The position numbers and the translations under genes were made by a program. From positions 1,116,001 through 1,180,000 of the forward strand of contig NZ_CP118164.1 of the NCBI RefSeq assembly GCF_028748185.1: a DNA stretch of 64,000 nucleotides, given 5' to 3'. Each line of letters starts with the position of its first letter. Position 1 is the stretch's first letter. The notes beneath the pieces were generated by a model that saw only the letters and a list, made by a program, of their open reading frames with translations, searched no databases and was not told where the DNA came from. Source of the stretch: Bremerella sp. P1. Its GTDB lineage: Bacteria > Planctomycetota > Planctomycetia > Pirellulales > Pirellulaceae. Below, piece by piece: positions 53,938 through 62,830 of the stretch.

Positions 53938-54720
53938 TTACAAGAGGCCAGCGTTGATCATGATATCGCCCAGGTTGTTCTGCCCGGGTTTGACCACGAT
54001 CTCGACAACGCCTTTACGGTCCTTAAGGACTTTGCCACCTAGGGTTAGCTCTTTGATGTTCCCAGGTCTTTCATGCCAGACCTGAAACTTGTGGGTTCCC
54101 ACTGGCAGATTCTCGATCGTAAATTTGCCGTCATGACCAGAGACCGCCATGTAGGGCGATTCCCGGATGACGATCTTCGCGGTCATCCAAGGATGAATCG
54201 TACAACTGGCGTTCATCGGATAACGCTCTTCATCGGCGAAAACGTGAGCTTGCTTCTGACCGACAGGTACCAGGAAGTTGATGCCTGCGTTCGCGAAGCC
54301 TTCGACTTTGAAATTGTGCGGAAGAGGATCCGCGTTGACGAGGTCGACCGTTTGTCCTGGCCGGACCATCACCACGTGCGGTTCATAAATGCATCCTTTA
54401 TTGGATACCTGTACGGCCTGGTTCTTGAGAGGCGCGTACATCGGATGCGGCGTAGGGGCTTCCTCGCCGCGATCCACGTACAACCACAGTGCCACGTCTT
54501 GCAACTCGTTTTTCGGACCGATTCGCAACGATGGATCGGGGACTTTGTCTCCGCAGAATCCTACAGCAGGCGCGGTGACCGCAAGTGCTGGCAGTTTTGG
54601 AATCACAATTCCCTGCACCACGAAACGACCGGTAACCGTTCCCCATTGCTGCGCAACGAGGTCCTGGGCAAAGATGCCCAGGACAGTCAGCGTCAAAATA
54701 GCAACGTGGGTTAGTCGCAT
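53938..54720 (-). CDS. Exported cupredoxin-like protein A
   Basis: The 260-residue exported protein has a signal peptide (VAILTLTVLGIFAQDLVA), a middle domain that looks like a cupredoxin with possible type 1 copper ligands H135 (PLPHNFKVEG), C173, H176 and M179 (ASCTIHPWM), and a C-terminal carboxypeptidase-regulatory-like sandwich (GHDGKFTIENLPVGTHKFQV). Such proteins are found near cytochrome c and methylamine-type clusters. It is a paralogue of the next gene in the operon, 25 bases upstream in transcription order. A copper role is inferred from the ligand set. Confidence 0.8.
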   Translation of the reverse strand: MRLTHVAILTLTVLGIFAQDLVAQQWGTVTGRFVVQGIVIPKLPALAVTAPAVGFCGDKVPDPSLRIGPKNELQDVALWLYVDRGEEAPTPHPMYAPLKNQAVQVSNKGCIYEPHVVMVRPGQTVDLVNADPLPHNFKVEGFANAGINFLVPVGQKQAHVFADEERYPMNASCTIHPWMTAKIVIRESPYMAVSGHDGKFTIENLPVGTHKFQVWHERPGNIKELTLGGKVLKDRKGVVEIVVKPGQNNLGDIMINAGLL

Positions 54721-54745: not shown

Positions 54746-55525
54746 TTACTTCAGGTCGCCGGCATCGATGGAGATGTCACCCAGGTCGTTTTCACCTGCT
54801 TTGACGGTGATTTCCAGCAGACCCTTGCGGTCCTTGACCTTCTTGCCACCAACGGTCATTTCCTTGATGGTGCCAGGAACTTCGTGCCAGATTTGCAGCT
54901 TGTGCTCACCAACCGGCAAGTTCTTGATCTCGAACGAACCATCTTCGCCGGTAACGGCCATGTAAGGCAGTTCACGAACGACGAGCTTAGCCGACATCCA
55001 AGGGTGGATCGAGCAGCTGGCGTTCATTGGGTAACGTTCTTCGCTGTCGAACTTGTGTTCGTAAACGCCACCAACAGGAACCAGGTTGTTCATGCCAGCG
55101 TTGGCGAAACCTTCGACCTTGAAGTTATGTGGAATTGGGTCCGAGTTTTTGAATTCAACCGGCTGACCGACCATGATCGTCGCCACGTGTGGGGCATACA
55201 GGCAAGCCTTGTTGTCGACCACGACTGGCACCTTGGCAGCAGCAGCGTAATCCGGGTGAACGGCCGGGGCCTTGTCGCCACGATCCAGATACAACCACAT
55301 GGCCACGTTTTGCAGGCCATTCTTTTCGCCCACCAATATGGATGGGTCAGGCAGGTTTGGACCACAGAATTCGGCGTCCTTGGTCACGCTCATCGCAGGA
55401 AGAGCGGCAACGTCGCCATCAACCACAAAACGTCCCTTAACGGTGCCCCATTCCTGAGCGACGGCACTTTGTGCACAAATGCCGATAACCGCTAACAGCA
55501 TCAATCCAAGTTGTGTCTTCTTCAT
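54746..55525 (-). CDS. Exported cupredoxin-like protein B, first gene of the oxidase operon
   Basis: The 259-residue paralogue of the downstream gene has the same layout: signal peptide (LGLMLLAVIGICAQSAVAQ), PIPHNFKVEG (His), NASCSIHPWM (Cys, His, Met) and the C-terminal GEDGSFEIKNLPVGEHKLQI. A strong Shine-Dalgarno AAGGAG lies seven bases before the ATG, suggesting high expression. Its codon choice is also more biased (many CTG, AAG, GTT repeats of preferred codons) than that of protein A. It may be a soluble copper electron carrier feeding the cytochrome. Confidence 0.82.
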   Translation of the reverse strand: MKKTQLGLMLLAVIGICAQSAVAQEWGTVKGRFVVDGDVAALPAMSVTKDAEFCGPNLPDPSILVGEKNGLQNVAMWLYLDRGDKAPAVHPDYAAAAKVPVVVDNKACLYAPHVATIMVGQPVEFKNSDPIPHNFKVEGFANAGMNNLVPVGGVYEHKFDSEERYPMNASCSIHPWMSAKLVVRELPYMAVTGEDGSFEIKNLPVGEHKLQIWHEVPGTIKEMTVGGKKVKDRKGLLEITVKAGENDLGDISIDAGDLK

Positions 55526-59748: not shown

Positions 59749-60450
59749 TTACGATTCGCCGAAGAACTCTTCGGCAATCTTCTTCAGATAGTCGTCCGAA
59801 AAGACATTGGGGGCTGGCTTCTCGGTCGGCTTCGCCCCAGGCCGGCTTGGCTTGCCAGGCGGGGTCTTCGGCTGGGGCGCTGGCATAGCGGTGGGAACAC
59901 TTCGCGATTGATCTTCCGACGGTGCCAACGCATCGACGTCGATCTTACCGAAGAATTCGACCCACTCGCTTACTTCGTTTTCGGGAATAGCCGGAGCACT
60001 TGGCCGTTTAGGCAGTGGCGGTTTCTTGGCTTCCTCTTCCCGGCGACGGGCACGCGATTGCCGCATCAAGCGATACCAGCTATCGCTATCGATGGCCTTC
60101 GCTTTGCGGCGTCGGGCCGCACGCTGCACGCGGTGATCGCTGGAGACCACCGTTAGACGCTTGGGAGCATGATGCTCTTGAATCAGCTCTTCGATCATCT
60201 CGTCGGCGTCGGCATAGCCGGTGGCAAACCGTACAGTGATCTGATGATAGTCGTAGACACGCGGCAACCCAGGCGGGGCCTTGGCCGAGTCGAAGACAAC
60301 GACGGTCTGCGTCAGTTCCTTCGGATCGATCACCGCCAGCAAGGCATCTAAGAGAGCCCTGCGTTCGCCTTCAAAAGAACCTTCACCATCGACAGAACCG
60401 ACTAGCCCAGCCGCGTATAGCAGATTGTATCCATCAATAATCAGCGGCAT
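59749..60450 (-). CDS. NYN-domain protein (YacP/Rae1-like RNase family)
   Basis: The 233-residue protein starts with an NYN/PIN-like nuclease domain: MPLIIDGYNLLYAAG (first Asp), VVVFDSAKAPPG, ITVRFATGYADADEMIEELI and LTVVSSDHRVQRAARR, which together form the acidic site of the YacP family; in Bacillus the homologue Rae1 cuts mRNA on ribosomes. The C-terminal 90 residues are Pro, Lys and Glu-rich and end in a short conserved-looking helix (DDYLKKIAEEFFGE). It lies 56 bases after the dihydroorotase-like gene. Confidence 0.88.
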   Translation of the reverse strand: MPLIIDGYNLLYAAGLVGSVDGEGSFEGERRALLDALLAVIDPKELTQTVVVFDSAKAPPGLPRVYDYHQITVRFATGYADADEMIEELIQEHHAPKRLTVVSSDHRVQRAARRRKAKAIDSDSWYRLMRQSRARRREEEAKKPPLPKRPSAPAIPENEVSEWVEFFGKIDVDALAPSEDQSRSVPTAMPAPQPKTPPGKPSRPGAKPTEKPAPNVFSDDYLKKIAEEFFGES

Positions 60451-60506: not shown

Positions 60507-61790
60507 TTAGTTCCCATCGTAGCGGAACTTCGTCACTCCGCCTACGATCGTTTCCACCGCACGTCCGGTCAGTTCAACACCACCGAAGGGAGAATTGAAA
60601 CTCTTCGAGCGGAAGGTGGACGGATCGACCGTCCACTTGGCTTCCGGATCGATCAGCGTCACATCGGCATCGGCACCAGGCTTGAGCGTTCCCTTTTCGA
60701 CACCCAATACTGTGGCAACATTGGTCGACATGGCCCGAATCACCGTCAGCCAGTCGAGGTGCCCGGCATGCACCAAGTGCGTGCTGACCAACCCCAAGGC
60801 TGTCTCCAATCCGACCATACCAAACGGAGCTTCCGTAATCGCGCACATCTTCTTTTCCGAAGACCGCGGAGCATGCCCGCTGGCGATGACGTCGATCGTG
60901 CCATCTTTCAGCCCAGCAATACACGCGTCAATATGATCGCGTGAACGCAAGGGCGGATTGAGTTTTAAACTGGTGTGAAAGCCTCGCATGGCCGCGTCGG
61001 TCAACGCGAACTGATAGGCACAGATACTTGCCGTTACGCTTACGTCGCGGTCCTTTGCCCGGCGAAGGATATCGACCGTGCCGCTACAGGAAATGGCCAG
61101 CAAATGCAGCTTACCGCCGGTGGCTTCACAAATACGAATGTCGCGAGCGGCCATCACATCTTCGGCCTCGGCCGGCATCGGGGCGAGCCCTAGCACGGTA
61201 CTGACCGAGCCGTCGTGCATGACGCCATCACGTGAGAGTTCGACCATCTCGGGCCGATTCAGCACGGGGCGATCGAACATGAGCGTGTATTCCAGGGCCC
61301 GGCGAAGCAGTTCCGGGTTGGACACCGGCCGTTGACCATCGCTGAACGCGATCGCTCCGGCATTGTGCAGAATGCCGATCTCAGCCATTTCTTCCCCTTG
61401 GCGTCCACTGCTAACGCACGCCACGGGAAACACGTTGCAATGATCGGCCTCGGATGCCTGGCGACCGAGATACGTCACGGCGGCGGCACTATCAACCGGT
61501 GGATTGGTTTCAGAAATGGCCGCGATGGATGTGAACCCGCCGGCAAGCGCTGCACAGCCAGCCGATTCGATCGTTTCGTCTTCCTCAAAACCTGGCTCAC
61601 GAATCTGCACGTGCAGATCAATCAGCCCCGGGACGACCAACTTACCGGTAGCATCGATGACCTTCATCTCGTCCGTCGGCTCGACGTCGATGGCAGCGAT
61701 GCGTCCCTCTTCGATCAGCAGGTTGGTAACGCGATCGATTTCTTGGCTTGGGTCGATGACCCGACCGTTTTGTATCAGCGTTTTCAGCAT
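60507..61790 (-). CDS. Dihydroorotase-like protein lacking metal ligands (pseudo-PyrC)
   Basis: The 427-residue protein follows the type I dihydroorotase fold (VVPGLIDLHVQIREPG, ALAGGFTSIAAISETNPPVD, EAPFGMVGLETAL), so annotation tools will call it pyrC. The zinc ligands are missing: HVH is HVQ (H60, Q62); the EHCED motif is LNRPE (177-181); AHVS is LAIS (231-234); TDHAPH is SGHAPR (304-309), removing the catalytic Asp. It resembles the inactive PyrC' of Pseudomonas, which only supports aspartate transcarbamoylase. It lies 80 bases after pyrB. A working dihydroorotase must then be elsewhere. The loss of ligands is seen; the role is inferred. Confidence 0.9.
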   Translation of the reverse strand: MLKTLIQNGRVIDPSQEIDRVTNLLIEEGRIAAIDVEPTDEMKVIDATGKLVVPGLIDLHVQIREPGFEEDETIESAGCAALAGGFTSIAAISETNPPVDSAAAVTYLGRQASEADHCNVFPVACVSSGRQGEEMAEIGILHNAGAIAFSDGQRPVSNPELLRRALEYTLMFDRPVLNRPEMVELSRDGVMHDGSVSTVLGLAPMPAEAEDVMAARDIRICEATGGKLHLLAISCSGTVDILRRAKDRDVSVTASICAYQFALTDAAMRGFHTSLKLNPPLRSRDHIDACIAGLKDGTIDVIASGHAPRSSEKKMCAITEAPFGMVGLETALGLVSTHLVHAGHLDWLTVIRAMSTNVATVLGVEKGTLKPGADADVTLIDPEAKWTVDPSTFRSKSFNSPFGGVELTGRAVETIVGGVTKFRYDGN

Positions 61791-61870: not shown

Positions 61871-62830
61871 TCAATTGGCACGCCCTGCGCTGACCAGCCA
61901 CATGGCCGCCATGCGAACCGCCAAGCCGTTGTTCACCTGGTGCAGGATCACCGAATGCTCGCCGTCGGCCACCTCTGGGGTGATTTCAACACCGCGGTTG
62001 ATCGGCCCAGGAGCCATAATCAAGATGTCTGACTTGGCCCGCTGCATGCGATTTTGATCCATCGCATAAAGCAACGCGTACTCGCGAACCGATGGGAAGG
62101 GACGCGTGTATTGCCGCTCGAATTGGATACGAAGCAAGTTCAAAACATCGCAACGGGGCAGGATCGCGTCCAAATCGTACGAGACCTCGACGCCGTATTC
62201 TTCCCAGCGGCGGGAAACAAGCGTCGACGGGCCACACACGATGACGTGCGCCCCAAGCTTTTGTAGTCCCCAGATATTCGACCGGGCCGTCCGGCTATGG
62301 GCGATATCCCCTACCAATGCGACGGTCTTGCCGCGTAAGTCGCCGCGATGCTGACGAATGGTTAGGATGTCGAGCAGACCTTGCGTGGGGTGCTCATGCG
62401 GACCGTCACCGGCGTTGATCACGGAAACGTCCATGTTTTCGGACAGCATCTGAGCGGTGCCGGGCGCCTTATGCCGACAGACGAGCGTATCGATACACAT
62501 CGACTGGATCGTCTTGGCCGTGTCTAGCAGCGTTTCTCCCTTGGAGAGACTACTACTGGATGCCGAGAACTCGATGACATCGGAACCCAAGCGACGAGCC
62601 GCAAGCGAAAAACTGATTCGTGTGCGTGTCGAGTCTTCAAAGAACAGATTGACGCTGGTGCGACCGGTCAATAGCGGCAGCTTCTGGCGGCAATCTTGGG
62701 TGGATTCTTTGAACGCTTGAGCAACGTCGAGAAGAAGCGTGATTTCGTCTGACGTTAAACTTTCCAAATCGAGCAGATGCCGCTTTGTCCAGCGGCCTAC
62801 GAAGGGCTCGAGAAAACCAGGCGTCTCCAT
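61871..62830 (-). CDS. pyrB: Aspartate carbamoyltransferase
   Basis: PyrB joins carbamoyl phosphate and aspartate in pyrimidine synthesis. The 319-residue protein has the carbamoyl phosphate motif FFEDSTRTRISFSLAARRLG, LSKGETLLDTAKTI, HEHPTQGLLDILTI, VGDIAHSRTARSNI and the closing GPINRGVEI and HQVNNGLAVRMA. All active-site residues appear present. ATG 62830 starts the conserved part; an in-frame upstream ATG exists at 62878. The next gene codes for a dihydroorotase-like protein without metal ligands, the arrangement of Pseudomonas pyrBC'. Confidence 0.96.
   Translation of the reverse strand: METPGFLEPFVGRWTKRHLLDLESLTSDEITLLLDVAQAFKESTQDCRQKLPLLTGRTSVNLFFEDSTRTRISFSLAARRLGSDVIEFSASSSSLSKGETLLDTAKTIQSMCIDTLVCRHKAPGTAQMLSENMDVSVINAGDGPHEHPTQGLLDILTIRQHRGDLRGKTVALVGDIAHSRTARSNIWGLQKLGAHVIVCGPSTLVSRRWEEYGVEVSYDLDAILPRCDVLNLLRIQFERQYTRPFPSVREYALLYAMDQNRMQRAKSDILIMAPGPINRGVEITPEVADGEHSVILHQVNNGLAVRMAAMWLVSAGRAN

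Follow-up and report, generated by a model that had tools for sequence, protein, structure and literature searches.

Outside the group reported here, non-catalytic dihydroorotase (DHO) subunits of aspartate transcarbamoylase (ATCase) have been described for Proteobacteria and fungi. The pDHO of Pseudomonas aeruginosa is required to assemble active ATCase (PMC7053772). Disruption of the pyrB-adjacent gene smc01361 of Sinorhizobium meliloti is reported to lead to pyrimidine auxotrophy, and an inactive PyrX has been proposed (PMC5929573). In the DHO of Aquifex aeolicus, after which ligands are numbered in this study, the alpha-zinc ligands are His61, His63 and Asp153, the beta-site residues are His180 and His232, and Asp305 is the next nearest (PMC3880350). 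Among planctomycetes, the pyrB neighbour of Rhodopirellula baltica has been termed a DHOase (PMC4016543); among the matches listed in our search of the open-licence literature, none dealt with a non-catalytic dihydroorotase from this phylum.

A type I DHO homologue, P0001, adjoins pyrB in the window (the whole 64,000-nucleotide stretch of Bremerella sp. P1 that was analysed). The gene lies 80 bp downstream of pyrB on the same strand (Table 1), which bears out the adjacency reported in the first-pass annotation. Judged from sequence, it very probably encodes a non-catalytic DHO-fold subunit (PyrC'/PyrX/pDHO) of a class A2 ATCase. P0001 is a full-length type I homologue that scores 322.5 bits against TIGR00857 "dihydroorotase" (cut-off 279.05) and matches the Aquifex DHO chain with an E-value of 4.1e-84. 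Because it passes the TIGR00857 cut-off, it would be named dihydroorotase; the first-pass annotation had likewise expected automatic pipelines to call it an active pyrC. The pyrB product, P0002, scores above the cut-offs of TIGR00670 and NF002032 and contains STRTR, KGET and HPTQ, which we take to be the ATCase active-site motifs. An alternative ATG start at 62830 lies 16 codons inside its TTG-initiated frame. The plus strand of 60507-61790 has stops in the frame examined. Elsewhere in the window, two minus-strand ORFs of about 260 aa each (53938-54720 and 54746-55525) appear to be a tandem duplication, their translations having been compared by eye.

Table 1. Features of the pyrB locus, altered active-site motifs of P0001 and the second predicted dihydroorotase of the same genome.
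Feature	Position	Strand	Basis or remark
Putative non-catalytic type I dihydroorotase homologue (PyrC'/PyrX-like, pDHO), P0001	60507..61790	minus	ORF, ATG start, 427 aa
pyrB, aspartate transcarbamoylase catalytic chain, P0002	61871..62878	minus	TTG-initiated ORF, over NCBIfam cut-offs
YacP-like NYN-domain protein (PF05991)	59749-60450	minus	Immediately downstream of the decayed DHO gene
Metal site HxH to HxQ (H60-V61-Q62); His63 to Gln62	61605..61613	minus	Alignment
Metal ligand Asp153 to Gly152 (D151-G152); FTDDG to FSDGQ	61335..61340	minus	Alignment
HCED motif, His180 to Arg179 (N178-R179)	61254..61259	minus	Alignment
HVS motif, His232 to Ala232 (A232-I-S234)	61089..61097	minus	Alignment
TDHAPH to SGHAPR, residues 304-309; Asp305 to Gly305, last His to Arg309	60864..60881	minus	Alignment
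Second predicted DHO, P0003	G000:C1:4141982-4143310		HxH, Lys in GIKIYM, HAED, HVS and TDHAPH intact

P0001 has lost most of the residues that define a working active site. Alignment to the Aquifex enzyme shows that five of six metal or catalytic positions are gone (His63, Asp153, His180, His232 and Asp305) and that only His61, as H60, is retained. Asn95 is also replaced (Glu94). From the set of alpha-metal ligands and catalytic Asp305 by which an active type I PyrC is recognized, P0001 thus keeps His61 alone. The four motif changes listed by the first-pass annotation (HxQ, the EHCED and AHVS motifs without their His, and SGHAPR) are all as it described, including the loss of the catalytic Asp, while the loss of Asp153 had been overlooked. 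Since His180 and His232 are dispensable in the Aquifex DHO (PMC3880350), the weight rests on His63, Asp153 and Asp305. The alignments at the ligand positions, a check advised at first pass, have no gap or shift at the motifs and the losses stand; we found no obvious case of a ligand being supplied by a neighbouring residue. The changes recur across the genus and its nearest relatives and all six positions are kept in most related loci (118 of 170), so they are not due to chance.

Intact and decayed copies occur side by side among related loci. We compared 170 loci, all selected for their similarity to P0001 or to its alignment: the window's own, 29 further best matches, 60 match regions and 80 named loci (the best 80 of 288). 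These do not equate to 170 genomes, as L030 and L055 belong to one genome and L106 equals L019. The six positions are kept in 118 loci, 51 keep between zero and four, and one is a fragment (L176). Within the fetched flanks, which differ and in some cases reach contig ends, pyrB was present at 48 of the 51 decayed loci (on the same strand) and at 77 of the 118 intact ones. Two of the decayed loci, L049 and L054, have their pyrB elsewhere in the genome (G105 and G087, respectively), and no pyrB was found in the 3 kb upstream of decayed L134. Decayed and intact states are even found within a single family (G118 and G149, respectively).

Decay is focused on the former active site. Sixty-two positions hardly vary among the 118 intact loci. 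The 51 decayed loci have lost 12 of these, and all 12 lie in, or beside, the ligand/metal, catalytic and substrate motifs. Averaged over all columns, entropy is the same (1.43) for intact and decayed loci. Every copy in the window's group (23 loci) lacks Asp305 and has Gln or Glu in place of His63. Family f4 (25 loci) retains Asp305 in all copies and His61 in 22, and has Ala, Gly or Ser at the His63 position, with Trp, Phe and Thr once each. An extremely diverged copy beside pyrB (L216, G361:C1:4193707-4194924) has 31-35% identity to P0001, with the stretch that held the first metal motif rewritten as well; decay seems to continue in this lineage. Another locus (L152:3001-4254) keeps all six positions but has Asn95 changed to Asp and His309 to Leu, possibly an early stage of decay.

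The vacated pocket could have found a new use. P0001 might bind PyrB with a mainly regulatory present role, its pocket sensing a nucleotide or a metabolite of the pathway, and a polar pair that is consistent across the window's group, Gln/Glu at 62 (23/23) with Arg at 309 (21/23), would fit such a role. As a set, however, the 12 ex-active-site positions vary above average in this group (mean percentile of variability 0.62, against 0.04 in intact loci), and nucleotide effects in P. aeruginosa have been ascribed to instability of the complex, not to allostery (PMC7053772). We therefore regard a primarily regulatory subunit as quite unlikely.

The genome that carries P0001 encodes a second predicted DHO. 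We searched this genome (a single contig of 6.96 Mb) for another DHO with intact ligands, as had been suggested at first pass, and found P0003, which scores above the NCBIfam cut-off of NF005751 (PRK07575). A type II PyrC (TIGR00856) was not found over cut-off, the sole match lying inside the P0003 gene. PyrI had no match in this genome, while the same search was positive in seven of 14 control genomes; a separate search of 10 genomes likewise gave no match.

A second DHO accompanies decay throughout the genomes compared. P0003 was searched in 80 of 91 listed genomes, of which 38 have a decayed copy, 41 an intact one and one (G365) neither. The decayed set consists of nine genomes from family f1, 26 from f4 (including extremely diverged G361), G118, G064 and G148. 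Another predicted DHO was present in 38/38 decayed genomes and in 0/41 intact genomes. The second DHOs are of three kinds: 24 resemble P0003 (PRK07575), one is of the PRK09060 kind (G118) and 13 form a kind of 411-414 aa. Motifs were read in all 38 and NCBIfam was run on ten, P0003 included; of the 411-414-aa kind, five were scanned and all score below the TIGR00857 cut-off. Proteins of this last kind (L230-L242, e.g., L230:1176-2408) carry DIHIHARDD-like and YKxYMGPS motifs. The first His of HxH is replaced by Gln (DDQVH or DPQVH) in 17 of the 24 PRK07575-kind proteins and in the PRK09060-kind protein, 18 of the 38 in all; thus, their activity is predicted, from family naming. Yet the remaining motifs of these proteins (L193-L211) are intact, and HxH by itself is therefore a poor test.

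The extra matches in the 41 intact genomes are 15 genes that score over a dihydropyrimidinase or allantoinase cut-off; one intact genome (G010) has an additional trace match (E 6.4e-4). Several of the intact genomes are incomplete (drafts at 72-95%), and the absence of a second DHO is weaker evidence there. Independent pairs on starred branches agree in 4/4 cases, a small test that remains below significance (sign test p 0.125). In the G365 draft (L250, L251), neither a close pyrB nor a PyrB-linked DHO, intact or decayed, is present. An OTCase and a 471-aa transcarbamoylase were found. This pattern would fit joint loss of the gene and pyrB; we give it no weight, because the genome is a draft and the carbamoyltransferase at L251 scores under the ATCase cut-off.

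The presence of a second DHO also bears on whether P0001 is still an enzyme, with a zinc-free or rearranged metal site and perhaps held in reserve for times of metal shortage. DHO activity has been attributed to a PyrC paralogue devoid of zinc-binding residues (as cited in PMC2770081), so ligand loss alone is no proof of inactivity; this metal-poor paralogue belongs to a Zur-regulated, zinc-stress gene cluster (PMC2770081). The dispensable pair His180 and His232, and the retention of Asp305 and mostly of His61 in f4, also speak for continued activity. Against this, P0001 has in addition lost His63, Asp153, Asp305, Asn95 and His309, its ex-active-site positions have become more variable than average, and every decayed genome has another predicted DHO. 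We consider residual catalysis very improbable.

The decayed gene is under strong purifying selection similar to that on pyrB. Within the genus and its nearest MAG (L010, L016, L017, L018 and L105), dN/dS (NG86) is 0.037-0.077 for the decayed gene (10 pairs) and 0.033-0.072 for pyrB, and the second DHO gives 0.029-0.061 (six pairs of the four genus copies). The decayed gene outpaces pyrB in Blastopirellula (0.039-0.117 versus 0.033-0.056). It does so in genus g9 as well (0.016-0.072 versus 0.013-0.029), although synonymous sites there have reached or almost reached saturation. L019 (G389) and L106 (Blastopirellula marina DSM 3645) are identical in this measure, with dN = dS = 0 for both the gene and pyrB. 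The window's genome shares a family with G389, which makes it a relative of Blastopirellula (Pirellulaceae in the NCBI scheme). Low dN/dS, on a par with pyrB, indicates that the decayed gene is no pseudogene. That it is dying or a sequencing artefact, as the lost catalytic residues might suggest, is scarcely credible when its frame is open in four genomes of the genus (its own and three others, at 86-95% identity), dN/dS is about 0.05 and 57 other intact-invariant positions are still conserved (entropy 0.28).

The DHO fold of P0001 is predicted to be intact. An AF2 model built from 36 sequences has a pLDDT of 88.2 and a pTM of 0.91, with residues 131-140 and 181-200 as its weakest blocks. In Foldseek, the model ranks 4yiw first and 3d6n next; against 3d6n_A, the Aquifex DHO from the ATCase complex, rmsd is 1.7.

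Phylogenies of both partners suggest that the active site was lost independently at least four times within Planctomycetota. The PyrB tree is independent of the trait gene and contains 84 of 125 pyrB rows (32 decayed, 52 intact), near-copies having been thinned and L079, L080, L093 and L172 excluded as too long or gappy. The decayed label needs five changes on this tree, at least four of them forced by starred branches, and five to six in bootstraps. The DHO tree, made from 78 hand-picked rows with the trait columns removed, also needs five changes, at least four by starred branches. This tree divides the decayed planctomycete copies among four groups, namely G118, G064 with G148, f4 and the window's group. 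L044 (G274) falls inside the window's group in the DHO tree and apart from it, on an open branch, in the PyrB tree. That the window's group shares a single loss with f4, a grouping named after the tree had been seen, was rejected by the AU test (p 0.0099). We infer that these changes are losses; although the counts are blind to gain versus loss, simultaneous regain of several ligands is less likely.

His61 to Arg together with Arg65 to Gly is shared by three decayed planctomycete loci (L040, L049 and L054) and three alphaproteobacterial loci (L268-L270), possibly by convergence. This double change and the common architecture would suit a joint acquisition of pyrB and an already inactive gene from Proteobacteria that had PyrX, but in the DHO tree the window's group (99/96) sits amid intact planctomycete copies, separate from the alphaproteobacterial branch (100/99; only three such rows), leaving next to no chance of such a transfer.

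Thus, P0001 is best read as a non-catalytic ATCase subunit. The PyrC' proposal of the first-pass annotation agrees with all the sequence-level predictions tested: pyrB linkage, ligand loss, selection, a second DHO and no PyrI. P0001 dimers would bridge two PyrB trimers in the manner of the Aquifex DHO dimers. PyrB may need the protein for assembly or stability. Such a need would explain why P0001 has been retained though its chemistry is lost. PyrB's nearest solved relatives include the Bacillus subtilis enzyme. The B. subtilis ATCase is a free trimer, and PyrB itself therefore cannot reveal whether it needs a partner. The ancestral DHO was presumably active and bound to PyrB (class A1), a state in which many present-day planctomycetes appear to remain. 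A free-standing DHO would then have been gained, after which the PyrB-bound active site would have decayed, with the remainder maintained because the complex required it; we propose this sequence of events. Such decay seems to have occurred at least four times in Planctomycetota. These events could form a one-way ratchet, in which gain of a free-standing DHO leads the PyrB-bound DHO to lose its chemistry while being kept, some pockets becoming a ligand or regulatory site (Gln/Glu62 with Arg309 in the window's group); we find this idea unlikely.

The class A2 kind of ATCase is known. What is new, as far as we have searched, is the phylum, to which the first-pass annotation had already proposed to extend the non-catalytic partner, and the repeated, replacement-linked loss. 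Because Planctomycetota hold both states side by side, the step from active to inactive subunit can be traced and tested. There is also a consequence for annotation, as a decayed gene would carry the name of a dihydroorotase.

P0001 can be compared with four described systems. The fungal pseudo-DHO domain of the CAD-like Ura2 is likewise a DHO without ligands beside an ATCase (PMC7053772); unlike P0001, it is part of a fused polypeptide and eukaryotic. The Aquifex aeolicus DHO of the ATCase-DHO dodecamer (class A1) shares the fold (TM 0.95 to 3d6n_A) and the gene-product partner, but this enzyme has kept its zinc site and remains catalytic within the complex (PMC3880350).

As with P0001, the S. 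meliloti PyrX gene is directly downstream of pyrB. In S. meliloti record CP090106.1, the gene beside pyrB, which we infer from its position only to be smc01361, reads RFGDGGESQ at nine positions where intact enzymes have HHRNDHHDH, and is decayed at all six metal or catalytic positions. Partly decayed controls are Methylobacterium (RFGDGHMDQ) and Azospirillum (RLGNGHHDQ), while Bacillus velezensis and Monoglobus are intact controls. The S. meliloti protein differs from P0001 in identity (approximately 38%) and is separate in the DHO tree.

The fourth comparison, by published description, is with Pseudomonas PyrC'/PyrX of the class A2 ATCase, an inactive type I DHO homologue of approximately 45 kDa that is encoded with pyrB, in genomes where other dihydroorotases are present (PMC7053772, PMC2770081). 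For P0001 the corresponding complex is putative. P0001 differs from the Pseudomonas protein in belonging to Planctomycetota and in an origin that traces to an intact planctomycete enzyme.
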